64,000 bases of DNA from Halalkalibacter urbisdiaboli (GTDB taxonomy: Bacteria > Bacillota > Bacilli > Bacillales > Bacillaceae_D): assembly GCF_002156385.1 (NCBI RefSeq), contig NZ_MVJM01000002.1, positions 62,001 to 126,000 of the forward strand. The letters are read 5' to 3'. The notes under the pieces are model-generated. The model was given only the letters and a program-made list of their open reading frames with translations. It was not told the origin of the DNA and searched no databases. Below are positions 57,445 through 64,000 of this stretch, piece after piece (the first letter of the stretch is position 1; each line of letters begins with the position of its first letter). Both the position numbers and the translations under genes were made by a program.

Positions 57445-58614
57445 TTATTGTATTTGTGCCCCATTTATTACTAGCTTTTCAGCCATTACTTCTTTAATGA
57501 TATCCACTGCTTGTTGAAGCTGTTCCTTAGTTGCAATAAGAGGTGGAAGGATACGAATAACTTTTGGACCAGCCTGTAAAATAAGCAACCCTTTTTCGCG
57601 ACAAGCTTGAATCAGTGAAGCGACTTCTTCCTTGCATTCAATTCCGACCATTAATCCGAGTCCTCTAACTTCCTCAATAAGGTCGCAATCCTTGAGTGCT
57701 TCCTCTAGCTGGGTGAGGAATAGTTGCCCCTTCACTTTTACATCTTGCAAAAATGAATCTTGAAAAACCTCGTCAAGAACTGCTTTTGCTGCAGCCATCG
57801 CAAGTGGGTTCCCGCCGAATGTTGATCCATGACTTCCTGCTTCAAAGGAAGACTTCAAATGTGCCTTTCCAATAACGGCACCAACAGGGAATCCATTACC
57901 TAACCCTTTTGCTAACGTAATAATGTCTGGTGATAATTGATATTGCTCATGGGCAAAACGTGTACCAGTGCGTCCAATTCCTGTTTGAATTTCGTCAATT
58001 ATTAATAAACAATTCATTTCCTTACAAAGAGCTGCTAATGCATCTGCATACTCTTGATTCATTAAACGAACGCCACCCTCGCCTTGGACGACCTCTACAA
58101 AGACAGCTGCAGTTTCTTCTGTTACAGCTTCTTTTAACGCTGCACTATCATTTAAAGGTACATAAGTGAATTCTGAGAGTAGTGGACCGAAGCCTTGATG
58201 AATTTTATCCTGGCCTGTTGCTGACATACTGCCAAGTGTCCGACCGTGAAACGAATTTGTTAAGCTTACCATTTTATGTTTTCCCGTTGCTTTACGAGCA
58301 AGCTTAATCGCAGCCTCATTCGCCTCAGCTCCACTGTTACAGAAGAACACATAATCTCCTACACTTTGCTCGGTAAGCAGCTGTGCAACCTGCTCTTGAC
58401 CCTCTAAATGGAAAAGGTTTGAAGCGTGCCAAAGTGTATCTACCTGAGCTTTCAGTGCTTCATTTACTTTTGGATGGCAATGCCCTAAATTACAAACTGC
58501 AATTCCTGAGACGAAATCTAGGTATTGCTTGCCATGTTCATCTATCAAAAGGGCGCCTTCCCCCTTTAATGCTTTTACATCCCACTTGGCATACGTTGGA
58601 AATAATGCACTCAT
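57445..58614 (-). CDS. argD: Acetylornithine aminotransferase
   Basis: A 389-residue class III PLP-dependent transaminase converting N-acetylglutamate semialdehyde to N-acetylornithine. [75 protein letters not shown] (Asp for the pyridine N), [20 protein letters not shown] (Schiff-base Lys) and [20 protein letters not shown] are all present. The ATG at 58614 follows SD AAAGGAG; the frame runs upstream into argB. Confidence 0.96.
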
Positions 58615-58630
58615 CCTATTCACTCCTTTC

Positions 58631-59413
58631 TTATACCTTTGTTGCAACTGGTGCTTTCATGATTTTCGTGCCAACTAATTGACCATTTTCAGATAAAGAG
58701 CTTCCTTTTCCGTTCATAATTAATACAGATTGAAGCGTACCTGACAAGCTTTTAATAGCTCCCTTAACCTTTGGAATCATGCCACCATAAATTGTTCCGT
58801 CTTCAATATAGTTTTCAATCTCTACCGTTGTTACTTCATCGAGTCGAACGCCATCCTTTAAGATTCCATCAACGTCTGTGACAAAGACTAATTCTTGAGC
58901 CCCAAGTGCAAACGCAATCCAAGCAGCAGCACTATCCGCGTTAACATTAAAATGCGTTCCTTCGTTATTCACACCAACTGGAGCAATAACCGGAATATAG
59001 GTCTGAGAAATTAGTGAATGTAATAATGCCTCATTAATCTTCACAGGTTCACCAACAAAGCCTAGCTTTGCTTCATCAACGGCTTTTACCTCGATTAACT
59101 TCCCATCACAGCCAGATAAACCAATCGCCTGACCGCCTACCTTTTGTATACTTGTGACAAGCTGCTTATTTACTTTCCCACAAAGGACCATCTCGACTGT
59201 ATTTAAGACATCTGTTGTCGTTTTACGTAAGCCATCAACAAAAACAGACTTAATGTTTAGTTGTTGTAATAACTGATTAATGTCAGGACCGCCACCATGG
59301 ACAAGAATTGGGTGCTTGCCAGATTTCTTTAGATCAACAATGCTTTGAAAAAAAGAATCAGAAAGCTCTGCTATTGTACTTCCGCCACACTTTATGACTA
59401 CAATTTCACTCAT
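58631..59413 (-). CDS. argB: N-acetylglutamate kinase
   Basis: A 260-residue amino acid kinase phosphorylating N-acetylglutamate. [18 protein letters not shown] (phosphate-binding Gly-rich start), [59 protein letters not shown] and [12 protein letters not shown] are standard. Length matches the short, usually arginine-insensitive type. Lies between argJ and argD with small gaps. Confidence 0.96.
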
Positions 59414-59442
59414 TTTGTTCCCCTCTCTCCATTCTCTTTAGA

Positions 59443-60675
59443 TCACGTACGGTATCCTGCATTAATCCGAACATAGTCGTACGTCAAGTCACATCCCCAT
59501 GCTTTACCGAAGCCTTCTCCAACGTGAAGGTCTACTGAAATAAGAACATGCTCTTCTTTCATATAATTCGTCGCTTCCTCCTCAGAAAAAGGAAGAGGAC
59601 GGCTATTTTCTAATGTTTGAACTGGACCAATCGCAATATCAATTGTATCTGGGTTAATGTCACAGCCACTATAACCAATGGCACAAATGATTCGTCCCCA
59701 ATTCGCATCTGTACCAAATACGGCTGATTTGACAAGGTCTGAGCCAACAATTTTTTTCGCAATCATACCTGCCTGCTCGTCGTTTTTTGCTCCATTTACT
59801 TGTACTTCAATTAATTTCGTTGCACCTTCTCCGTCACGCGCTATTTGTTTTGCTAAAGACTCACATGTTAGCGTTAAAGCTTCATAAAAACGTGACCAAT
59901 CTGGATGCTTAGGGGTTAATGACTCATGCTCTGCTAATCCAGAGGCCATCACAACAACCATATCATTCGTAGAAGTATCCCCATCAACGGTGATACGGTT
60001 AAATGTTTTATTCGTAATTGACGAAAGGGCTTCTTGTAATACGTTTGGTTCAATGACCGCATCAGTCGTCACAAATGAAAGCATCGTTCCCATATTCGGA
60101 TGAATCATTCCCGATCCTTTAGCTACCCCTGCAACCGAGACACTCTTACCATTTATCTCAACAGTATGACATACACGCTTTTGTGTTGTATCTGTTGTCA
60201 AAATTGCTTCATTGAACGCCGTAGCGCCTTCAATCGTTTTTTCGGGCTTGAGCATATCAATACCAGCACGGATTTTATCCATCTGAAGAAATTCACCAAT
60301 GACCCCAGTAGACGTTACAGCCACATAATGATCCGGAACATTAAAATGCTTCGCACTTAAATGTCTCATTTCATATGCATCTGCCATTCCTTGTTCTCCA
60401 GTACATGCATTGGCATTCCCACTATTAACAACAACCGCTTGAACCTTACCTTCTTTCTGAATGCTTTCCTGTGTTACCTTTAATGGAGCTGCTTGTATTT
60501 GATTTCTAGTATAAACAGCAGCTGCACTTGCCGGTACGTCACAAATAATGGCTCCAAGGTCTAATCGTTTTCGTTTTACACCTGTATATACACCTATGGC
60601 AGAAAACCCTTTTGGTGTCGTAATGCTGCCATCCTCAATTTCTACTACTTGGTTTTCTTCACTTACTATCTTCAC
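59443..60675 (-). CDS. argJ: Bifunctional glutamate N-acetyltransferase / ornithine acetyltransferase
   Basis: A 410-residue ArgJ of the self-cleaving Ntn-like fold. The autoproteolysis site and new N-terminal Thr are in AKGSGMIHPNMGTMLSF (cleavage before the Thr of GTML, about residue 197). VVVNSGNANACTGEQG in the alpha part and FGTDANWGRIICAIGYSG plus the C-terminal VRINAGYRT in the beta part confirm the family. No argA gene is present in the cluster, consistent with the cyclic acetyl-transfer route. Confidence 0.96.
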   Translation of the reverse strand: MKIVSEENQVVEIEDGSITTPKGFSAIGVYTGVKRKRLDLGAIICDVPASAAAVYTRNQIQAAPLKVTQESIQKEGKVQAVVVNSGNANACTGEQGMADAYEMRHLSAKHFNVPDHYVAVTSTGVIGEFLQMDKIRAGIDMLKPEKTIEGATAFNEAILTTDTTQKRVCHTVEINGKSVSVAGVAKGSGMIHPNMGTMLSFVTTDAVIEPNVLQEALSSITNKTFNRITVDGDTSTNDMVVVMASGLAEHESLTPKHPDWSRFYEALTLTCESLAKQIARDGEGATKLIEVQVNGAKNDEQAGMIAKKIVGSDLVKSAVFGTDANWGRIICAIGYSGCDINPDTIDIAIGPVQTLENSRPLPFSEEEATNYMKEEHVLISVDLHVGEGFGKAWGCDLTYDYVRINAGYRT

Positions 60676-60691
60676 TAAAAGACACCTCTCT

Positions 60692-61729
60692 CTATGGATA
60701 CACAGGTGAAAAAGTTAGCCCTGCCTCTTCATTCAATCCATTCATAATGTTTAAATTTTGAATCGCTTGCCCTGCTGCCCCTTTTACAACATTATCAATG
60801 ACTGATACAACCGTAATCCGACCTGTACGCTCATCATAGGTCACACCAATGTCACAGTAGTTACTTCCGAACACTTCTTTTGTTGCTGGATATGCGCCTT
60901 CTGGTCGAATCCGCACAAACGTTTCATTCTGATAACTTTCCTTATATAAAGAACGAAGCTTTTCCTCTGTTAGTGGTTGTTTGGCTTTCGCATAAATCGT
61001 TGCCATTATCCCTCGTACCATTGGCACAAGATGGGGCTGGAACGTAATTGTCTCTATTGATGAATCCCATGATTGAAGCATTTGTTCAATTTCAGGAATA
61101 TGTTTGTGTTTATTAATTTGATAGATTTTGAAATTCTCATTCATTTCACTAAAATGAGTAATCGGTGTTGCACTTCTTCCAGCACCCGATGTTCCTGATT
61201 TCGCATCAACGATGATGGAGTCGACCTCAATAAGTTGTTCTCTTACGAGTGGTGCTAACCCTAGTAACGTCGCCGTTGGATAACAGCCAGGATTTGAAAT
61301 AATTTTAGCATTCTTGATTTCCGCCCGATTCCATTCACTTAATCCATATACAGCTTGATTAATAATCGATTGACTAGCTGCTGGTCGTTGATACCAGTTT
61401 TCATATACATCGCGATTTCCAAGTCGTAAATCTCCGGATAAATCAATAACTTGACAACCTGCTTTAGCAATGGTCTCTGACCACTCTGCTGATACCCCTG
61501 GTGGTGTAGCTAAAAAGACTGCATCAACCTGCTCACCTATTTTTGATGCATTAATCTCCTCAAGGCGCTGCTCATAAATGTTTGTTAAATGTGGATAAGA
61601 CTCATGAATATGCACACCTTGTTTTGAAGATGAATAAAGAATAACTTCATTCACCTCTGGATGTCCGTTTAGTAAGCGTAATAGCTCAGCTCCGCCGTAT
61701 CCAGTTGCCCCAACAATACCAATCTTCAT
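60692..61729 (-). CDS. argC: N-acetyl-gamma-glutamyl-phosphate reductase
   Basis: A 345-residue NADP-dependent reductase, first gene of the cluster. IGIVGATGYGGAELLRLLNG (dinucleotide-binding), VFLATPPGVSAEWSETIAKA, the catalytic Cys in ISNPGCYPTATLLGLAPL, IVDAKSGTSGAGRSA and the substrate loop FQPHLVPMVRGIMATIYAKA. Controlled by the ARG-box promoter immediately upstream. Confidence 0.97.
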   Translation of the reverse strand: MKIGIVGATGYGGAELLRLLNGHPEVNEVILYSSSKQGVHIHESYPHLTNIYEQRLEEINASKIGEQVDAVFLATPPGVSAEWSETIAKAGCQVIDLSGDLRLGNRDVYENWYQRPAASQSIINQAVYGLSEWNRAEIKNAKIISNPGCYPTATLLGLAPLVREQLIEVDSIIVDAKSGTSGAGRSATPITHFSEMNENFKIYQINKHKHIPEIEQMLQSWDSSIETITFQPHLVPMVRGIMATIYAKAKQPLTEEKLRSLYKESYQNETFVRIRPEGAYPATKEVFGSNYCDIGVTYDERTGRITVVSVIDNVVKGAAGQAIQNLNIMNGLNEEAGLTFSPVYP

Positions 61730-62245: not shown

Positions 62246-62680
62246 TTAAGCTTCAAATGAATGATTGTGATTGTCCTCTTCGTACATTAAAAAGTGGTCG
62301 GCAACCGCGTAGATAAAACCTACAATCCCATATAGGATCATCGCCATTCCTACATTTAAATTGTATCCTTCAATAAACCAGTCCACATACATTGCATCGA
62401 AAATAAGTGTCCCCCCCCATGCAGCAAGTGTCGTAAACATGACTAGCTTAACAGCTAATATATTTAAAAACTTTTGGATGAAGAGAGTGAGAGGAAAGAA
62501 GGTAAGAAAAAACAGAAAAAAACCGAATAGTGCACCTAATCCGACAAGGAACAGACCAAAGTCAAGATGTTCACTTGTTGTGATTTTACTTCCTTCAATG
62601 ATTTCTAGTAGCCAAAGTGCTAGACCAAATAGAATCGTGAAAAGAATACAAAGCCATACGTAACGTTTAGCATAATCCAT
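62246..62680 (-). CDS. Four-helix membrane protein, unknown function
   Basis: A 144-residue protein with four predicted helices: YVWLCILFTILFGLALWLLE, FGLFLVGLGALFGFFLFFLT, LAVKLVMFTTLAAWGGTLIF, VGMAMILYGIVGFIYAVADH, and an acidic/His-rich tail EEDNHNHSFEA. SD AAAGGAGGAG precedes the ATG at 62680; the longer frame to 62710 has no signal. I do not recognise the family with certainty. Confidence 0.75.
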   Translation of the reverse strand: MDYAKRYVWLCILFTILFGLALWLLEIIEGSKITTSEHLDFGLFLVGLGALFGFFLFFLTFFPLTLFIQKFLNILAVKLVMFTTLAAWGGTLIFDAMYVDWFIEGYNLNVGMAMILYGIVGFIYAVADHFLMYEEDNHNHSFEA

Positions 62681-62813
62681 TTCGTTCTCCTCCTTTGTTA
62701 CTAAAACCATTATAGAATTCCTAATTACTTCTCACTTTACACTTCGATAGACTAGAAATAAAACCTCCTACAATTTCATAAGAGTGAGGTGGGCCACCTT
62801 TGGAATTACCCTT

Positions 62814-63225: not shown

Positions 63226-63241
63226 TGGGAGAACGAAAACA

Positions 63242-63267
63242 AAGAGCACAACATTAGCTGTGCTCTT
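63242..63267 (-). terminator. Terminator of the redoxin lipoprotein gene
   Basis: AAGAGCACA (63242-63250) pairs with TGTGCTCTT (63259-63267), followed on the minus strand by TTTGTTTT. It lies a few bases past the redoxin stop codon, which supports a gene that still ends there. Confidence 0.85.
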
Positions 63268-63273
63268 CATCGA

Positions 63274-63801
63274 TTATTCACTTAGTTCCTTTAGATGTTC
63301 ATGAATCTTTGAAGAGGTTTCCTCAATCTGTTCTCCCCAATGATCATTAATTTCATGATGAACATAATGCCCATTTTGATCTAGGATACTAAATCCTCGA
63401 TAAGACAGGTCATCATTTTTCATATTTACGTACTCAATTACCTCCAAGTTTGGATCAGATAATAAAGAGAATGTTAACCCTAATCCGTTCTTCAAAGCTT
63501 GACTATCGGAAGAAGATTCCTTACTTATCGCATAAATATCCGCATCTATATCATCAAATAATGCGAGATTCTCTTGCAGCTCAACTAGCTGCATTTGACA
63601 AAGTCCTCAGCCAACCTCCGTAAAATGAAATAACACCGTTGCCCGCTCCTTATTCGTTAGCGTAACCTCTTCACCTAAATCGTTTTGAAGTGTTAAGTCT
63701 CCCTCTGGTTCTTCGCTTGATGAACCACAACCGGATAAAACGAAAAGAACAGAACAGACACTCAACAAAAGAATGAATAGTTGCTTCTTCATCGTATACA
63801 T
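63274..63801 (-). CDS. Redoxin-domain lipoprotein with in-frame TGA at the active site; candidate selenoprotein
   Basis: Read through one TGA (63607-63609), this frame gives 175 residues. A lipoprotein signal (ILLLSVCSVLFVLSGC) and a Ser/Glu linker lead into a thioredoxin-fold domain: VTLTNKERATVLFHFTEVG-TGA-GLCQMQLVELQ. The TGA is codon 65 and stands where the first Cys of CxxC belongs, with Cys68 as the second. The downstream half (IDADIYAISKESSSDSQALK, SILDQNGHYVHHEINDHW) stays in frame to its terminator. The start has SD GGAGAGGTG and is 13 bp after a SCO1-like gene. Either Sec is inserted (U-G-L-C, SECIS at 63575-63593) or this is a recent nonsense mutation; the first is favoured. Confidence 0.65.
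63575..63593 (-). promoter_or_regulatory. Candidate bacterial SECIS hairpin
   Basis: Minus strand: TGCAGCT-AGTTG-AGCTGCA, a perfect 7-bp stem with a 5-nt loop starting 13 nt after the TGA. The loop begins 20 nt after the TGA and has G at its second position, matching the general bacterial SECIS model (small apical loop, G within the first two bases, correct distance). Confidence 0.55.
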
Positions 63802-63814
63802 TGTTTCACCTCTC

Positions 63815-64000
63815 CTATTGAACTGTTTGTTTTAGATCTTTAATAATCCCTTCCTGGTTTGATTGCAGTCCATCATACTTGCGGATAATCTTACCTCCAG
63901 GATCTACTAAAAAAAAGCTTGTCGGATGGACAAAATCATCCTCTTCTTCTATATATTGAACCGTTGTTTTAAATGTCTCCATTGCAAAAGTTGCAATTTC
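63815..64000 (-). CDS. SCO1/SenC family protein, C-terminal part only
   Basis: The last 61 codons of a thioredoxin-fold SCO1/SenC/PrrC protein; the rest lies beyond the window. Visible: FKTTVQYIEEEDDFVHPTSF, FLVDPGGKIIRKYDGLQSNQ and the end IIKDLKQTVQ. The conserved His of the copper site (here VHPTSFFLVD) is in place. Such proteins deliver copper or electrons to cytochrome oxidase CuA outside the membrane. Only 13 bp separate it from the redoxin lipoprotein start, so the two are cotranscribed. Confidence 0.75.
   Translation of the reverse strand, partial: EIATFAMETFKTTVQYIEEEDDFVHPTSFFLVDPGGKIIRKYDGLQSNQEGIIKDLKQTVQ

Follow-up and report, generated by a model that had tools for sequence, protein, structure and literature searches.

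Background

The selenoproteins of prokaryotes are sorted into 119 families in a 2026 review, and these include two groups of redoxins with a UxxC motif, namely the 'Prx-like thiol:disulfide oxidoreductases' of PF00578 and the 'redoxin family' of PF08534 (PMC13188914). Cys-containing homologues exist for 'nearly all selenoproteins' according to the same review, and are usual, not defining. Bacterial SECIS (bSECIS) elements are described there by a short set of rules: a stem of 4-16 bp, a loop of 3-9 nt with a G within its first two positions, a distance from UGA to loop of 16-37 nt, and a minimum free energy (MFE) of -7.5 kcal/mol or lower. Examples of Prx-like selenoproteins in an earlier survey belong to anaerobes, Geobacter and Syntrophomonas among them, and that survey counted three Bacillales selenoproteins already in 2006 (PMC1794560). 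Among redoxins associated with copper-site assembly, TlpA of Bradyrhizobium reduces ScoI and CoxB (COX II) (PMC6696091).

The predicted selenolipoprotein gene and its product

The window, that is the whole stretch of 64,000 nucleotides analysed here, contains near its end a minus-strand gene for a redoxin lipoprotein that is interrupted by an in-frame TGA (Table 1). The frame translates as MYTMKKQLFILLLSVCSVLFVLSGCGSSSEEP...FHFTEVG-U-GLCQMQLVELQEN...ELSE* and ends at a TAA (63274-63276). Here, an LSGC lipoprotein signal is followed by the redoxin domain, and the TGA is the only lesion. The residues after it are GLCQMQLVELQ, which places the TGA at the first position of UxxC (UGLC). The read-through protein matches PF00578 (AhpC-TSA) with 58.2 bits against a cut-off of 26, and the AlphaFold2 model of the domain (pLDDT 89) is of the Prx family. 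The initial annotation had described a UxxC redoxin lipoprotein beside SCO1, which is confirmed by Pfam domains and by the neighbouring loci; the coordinates, the single in-frame TGA, the Shine-Dalgarno sequence, the terminator and the lack of other lesions that it gave all hold on the sequence.

On comparative sequence evidence it is almost certain (probability about 95%) that the TGA is decoded as selenocysteine (Sec) and that the gene specifies a full-length selenolipoprotein, because the intact relatives all keep the codon and its hairpin and the gene-bearing genomes all have Sec machinery. Insertion of Sec had been proposed in the initial annotation, and the machinery, the conservation of codon and hairpin, and the co-occurrence described below support it.

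Table 1. Features of the selenolipoprotein locus (positions in the window)
Feature	Position	Strand	Remarks
Predicted selenolipoprotein CDS	63274..63801	-	175 aa with Sec65; PF00578/PF08534 redoxin; one TGA read through
TGA, almost certainly read as selenocysteine (U65 of UxxC)	63607..63609	-	30/30 aligned homologues; 71/72 order-wide matches
Cys68 (TGT), last residue of UxxC	63598..63600	-	Invariant in 30/30 homologues
SECIS hairpin, 7-bp stem (6 bp conserved), 5-nt loop AGUUG	63575..63593	-	Loop positions 2-3 invariant G-U
Lipobox LSGC, Cys25 the predicted lipidation residue	63727..63738	-	Cys in 30/30 homologues
Shine-Dalgarno sequence GGAGAGGTG	63807..63815	-	First G is the final base of the sco stop codon
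sco, 3′ part (SCO1/SenC lipoprotein, CPSVCP)	63815..64000	-	Runs beyond window end; caa3-type ctaG upstream, outside window
Intrinsic terminator, end of operon	63238..63271	-	2 terminator-like sites found versus 0.4 expected by chance in region

Conservation of the TGA codon

A protein search of 100 relatives returned 30 strong matches including the window protein, all with E <= 6e-30, the next match lying at E = 9e-8. The other strong homologues are 37-63% identical to the window protein. When these sequences are aligned, all 30 TGAs (from 30 genomes) fall in one column, and the invariant Cys68 and Gln69 follow. The relatives thus have TGA, not a Cys codon, at this position, with the hairpin kept and extra lesions absent. 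In an order-wide sample of 397 genomes, where matches were counted at E <= 1e-20 (n = 72), TGA is present in 71, and the remaining match is a fragment that begins 3′ of the site. No Cys form of the selenolipoprotein was found among these 397 genomes at that threshold, and the weak stop-free matches that were inspected are distant PrxQ/BCP-like proteins with TPxCTTxAC-type motifs.

Family members are present in other orders of the class in a class sample, and a phylum-wide sample yielded no family member outside the order. A distant lipoprotein from another Bacilli family (L077:1489-1995), which reads APG-U-TQCQGQLVQLQ and has the same hairpin, represents a deeper branch of the family. Two paralogues of the selenolipoprotein gene, both with TGA, occur in each of the genomes G344, G636 and G773.

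The SECIS hairpin

The hairpin, UGCAGCU-AGUUG-AGCUGCA, starts 13 nt 3′ of the TGA and folds as initially annotated. With its stem of 7 bp, its AGUUG loop and 20 nt from UGA to loop it agrees with the bSECIS rules, the 40 nt from the UGA fold at -10.9 kcal/mol, within the bSECIS limit, and the hairpin fits the bacterial SECIS model. Folded as a single sequence it is unexceptional against shuffles (z -0.4 to -1.2), so that alone it proves nothing and comparative evidence is needed.

The alignment is gap-free from the TGA, and a hairpin of the form ~GCARCU-nGUyn-AGYUGC is present in 29/29 distinct sequences, the six stem pairs being standard in 99.4% of cells. Stem pair 21/31 is AU in 17 sequences and GC in 12, with no mismatches; its 5′ side is a silent Gln third position and its 3′ side a silent Leu first position (TTG/CTG). 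This pair changed at least eight times on the protein tree, and the well-supported independent comparisons agree in direction in 5/5 cases, the sign test giving 0.06 because only five pairs qualify. For the Leu codons of the 3′ arm all 30 sequences use YTG, against 18% in the remainder of these genes. With a covariance model the hairpin was recovered in the same position in L069, L072, L073, L074 and L077, five further homologues outside the training set of the model. The conservation of the codon, of the hairpin register and of a covarying silent pair across 30 genomes, together with these out-of-sample matches, places the hairpin beyond chance.

As the sequence strongly supports, the hairpin (63593-63575) would recruit SelB carrying Sec-tRNA(Sec), the UGA upstream of it would be decoded as Sec, and translation would run on to the TAA. 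The SECIS model, when applied to the host genome, gave no convincing further selenoprotein, and two weak extra matches were without a matching UGA frame.

Selenocysteine machinery and co-occurrence

A search of the host genome (4.56 Mb, 12 contigs) for selA, selB, selD and selC found all four: selA (574 bits, with SelA confirmed by Pfam), selB (359 bits, with SelB winged-helix domains by Pfam), selD (414 bits), and a tRNA-Sec (59 bits, anticodon TCA), encoded on the opposite strand to selB and ~0.8 kb upstream of it. The genome is therefore equipped to decode Sec. Its selD gene also has an in-frame TGA, reading AG-U-GCKIGPED, and this TGA is followed, at a distance within the allowed range, by a stable hairpin whose loop is GUU. 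The FdhA homologues of this genome are free of in-frame TGA over the region matched and are thus not Sec enzymes. Downstream of selB (L025:4808-7258, C6) are an ORF resembling glycosyltransferases and genes for a binding protein (PF12974), a permease and an ATPase that make up a phosphonate-type ABC transporter, which is possibly a selenium oxyanion importer, or a mere neighbour.

Across the order, selA is present in 69/69 gene-bearing genomes versus 112/328 genomes without the gene (Fisher P = 5e-28, with shared ancestry ignored), and in the 100-genome set the figures are 30/30 and 20/70 (P = 3e-12, again with shared ancestry ignored). Within the host's own taxonomic family, gene and selA occur together in 19 genomes and are both lacking in 22. 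Two of the 19, G024 (C1:2509194-2510554) and G036 (C1:620554-621902), have selA in two pieces and both keep the UGA redoxin; the split probably reflects a frameshift (sequencing), an assembly break or a very recent loss. Overall, 181 of the 397 sampled genomes of the order carry selA. The suggestion in the initial annotation that Sec would be 'unusual for Bacillaceae' finds no support in this figure, nor in the 2006 count of Bacillales selenoproteins given in the survey cited above.

Other readings of the TGA

That a near-cognate tRNA inserts Trp, Cys or another ordinary amino acid at the UGA is very improbable. Low-level UGA readthrough does occur in Bacillus relatives, but it leaves unexplained the co-occurrence with selA, the covarying hairpin in the SECIS position and the failure to find a TGC or TGT form in the 397 genomes. 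Still less credible is a nonsense pseudogene or a sequencing error; a single in-frame stop viewed in isolation would have the same appearance, yet every intact homologue, in dozens of species, has the same TGA, and the co-occurrence with selA is perfect. Selection points the same way, in that the usable close pairs give dN/dS values below 1 both before and after the TGA, and the downstream values of ~0.04-0.23 indicate that the second half still works as coding sequence under purifying selection. Codon conservation, selection and a single redoxin domain effectively exclude a pseudogene, a sequencing error and a split gene. Hardly any weight attaches either to two separate products, the first half ending at the TGA and a second protein starting from the ATG at 63594 (12 nt after the TGA, with GAGG upstream), since that ATG is common to the window and one other homologue only (Met, as CQMQ, in 2/30, the others mostly having CQQQ and no start codon there) and the two halves jointly form one redoxin domain.

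Gene neighbourhood and function

In the window's locus sco ends 13 nt before the selenolipoprotein start codon, and ctaG is located upstream of sco. The homologues form two clades. Clade 1, to which the window belongs, has 21 loci, and ctaG-sco lies upstream in 20 of them, the exception having too little upstream contig sequence; a YtkA-like gene is inserted between sco and the redoxin gene in 2 of the 20. The second clade (9/30 sequences) is without the ctaG-sco neighbourhood, and at one of its loci a cupredoxin gene lies next to the redoxin gene. On the downstream side the window has an argC-argJ-argB-argD operon (57445-61729, minus strand), and L043 and L047 likewise have argC on this side of the redoxin gene. 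In the window, between the selenolipoprotein gene and argC, is an ORF for a 154-aa membrane-protein-like product without a Pfam match (62246-62710, minus strand).

After export the Sec-containing product would receive its lipid at Cys25 and be anchored to the membrane on its outer face. There its peroxiredoxin/thioredoxin-like domain would present Sec65 and Cys68 as a selenol/thiol pair, cycling through a selenenylsulfide. The cysteines of SCO and of the CuA site must be reduced before copper loading. Because the redoxin gene is the last of a ctaG-sco-redoxin unit, and by analogy with TlpA, the favoured function, held at roughly even odds, is the reduction of SCO and/or the CuA site by a selenol/thiol protein anchored in the membrane. 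The substrate in clade 1 would then be, with a similar half chance, the CxxxC of SCO, the cysteines of the CuA site in cytochrome oxidase subunit II, or both. Since the second clade has no ctaG-sco neighbourhood, copper-site reduction may not be the sole role of the family, and the substrate may differ there.

The main rival concerns function only and is the less probable of the two, namely an extracytoplasmic selenoperoxidase in which Sec65 would be peroxidatic and Cys68 resolving, guarding the membrane or the oxidase from peroxide. The best 50 PDB fold matches are all peroxiredoxins (PrxQ/AhpE/AhpC), the Sec takes the place that the peroxidatic Cys has in the alignment with PrxQ-type homologues, and R135 is invariant in 30/30 homologues, peroxiredoxins having a conserved active-site Arg. 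However, the peroxiredoxin active-site motif PxxxTxxC/U is incomplete in the 30 aligned homologues, where the Pro (-7) is not kept and the Thr (-3) is found in clade 2 only (the residues up to Sec are FHFTEVGU in clade 1 and FFFTTYTU in clade 2). The UxxC spacing is moreover that of thiol:disulfide oxidoreductases, and the close ctaG-sco linkage of clade 1 also argues against a peroxidase.

Should the product act as a reductant of SCO or CuA, selenium may be tied to copper-site assembly of respiratory oxidases. The hosts are oxidase-bearing, probably aerobic Gram-positive bacteria with an apparently Sec-only exported protein. As this protein and the Sec machinery coincide exactly in their distribution within one family, the question of why Sec is kept here becomes a testable one. 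Gene callers that read TGA as a stop only would split or truncate such genes.

Comparison with known systems

No published description or curated family for the selenolipoprotein was found in the literature or in NCBIfam release 20, and a contig scan with a single protein query returned two irrelevant loci only. A relative may already have been seen under a general name, because Bacillales selenoproteins were counted already in the 2006 survey. Two NCBIfam models share the redoxin fold with the window protein. One is NF040769 (SelL-related redox protein), against which it scores 21.7 bits with a cut-off of 120. The other is NF053656 (TUGYCR thioredoxin-fold (seleno)protein), a curated (seleno)protein family whose motif TUGYC is of the U-x-x type, and here the window protein scores 16.4 bits with a cut-off of 100. 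Being far below every cut-off of release 20, it was given no NCBIfam family name; the 30 members match mainly general peroxiredoxin/redoxin models.

The PrxQ/BCP and AhpE peroxiredoxins have the same fold, and the Sec of the window protein aligns with their peroxidatic Cys, whereas the window protein differs from them in its incomplete PxxxTxxC, its CxxC-type spacing, its lipoprotein nature and its Sec. TlpA of Bradyrhizobium resembles it as a membrane-anchored, extracytoplasmic, SCO-associated redoxin for which the same task is proposed. However, TlpA is thioredoxin-like, not Prx-like, with a CxxC active site, and the TlpA model was matched weakly and by 5/30 family members only. It is tentatively suggested that the selenolipoproteins form a Sec-only Bacilli lipoprotein family devoted to oxidase copper-site assembly, and a client that keeps the Sec machinery in the host's taxonomic family, where the gene is present in 19/19 selA genomes and in 0/22 selA-less ones. 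To our knowledge, no earlier selenoprotein of oxidase biogenesis has been described.

Unlike nearly all selenoproteins, the family lacks Cys homologues at E <= 1e-20 in the 397 genomes. The selenolipoprotein belongs to the known UxxC Prx-like selenoproteins, the assignment being by PF00578 and UxxC for the window protein and by description for the known ones. It shares with the Prx-like thiol:disulfide oxidoreductases (PF00578, UxxC/UxxU; PMC13188914 Table 1, PMC1794560) both PF00578 and a Sec that comes first in UxxC, and it differs from them in having no Cys form found, in being a lipoprotein of Bacilli and in its linkage to ctaG-sco.
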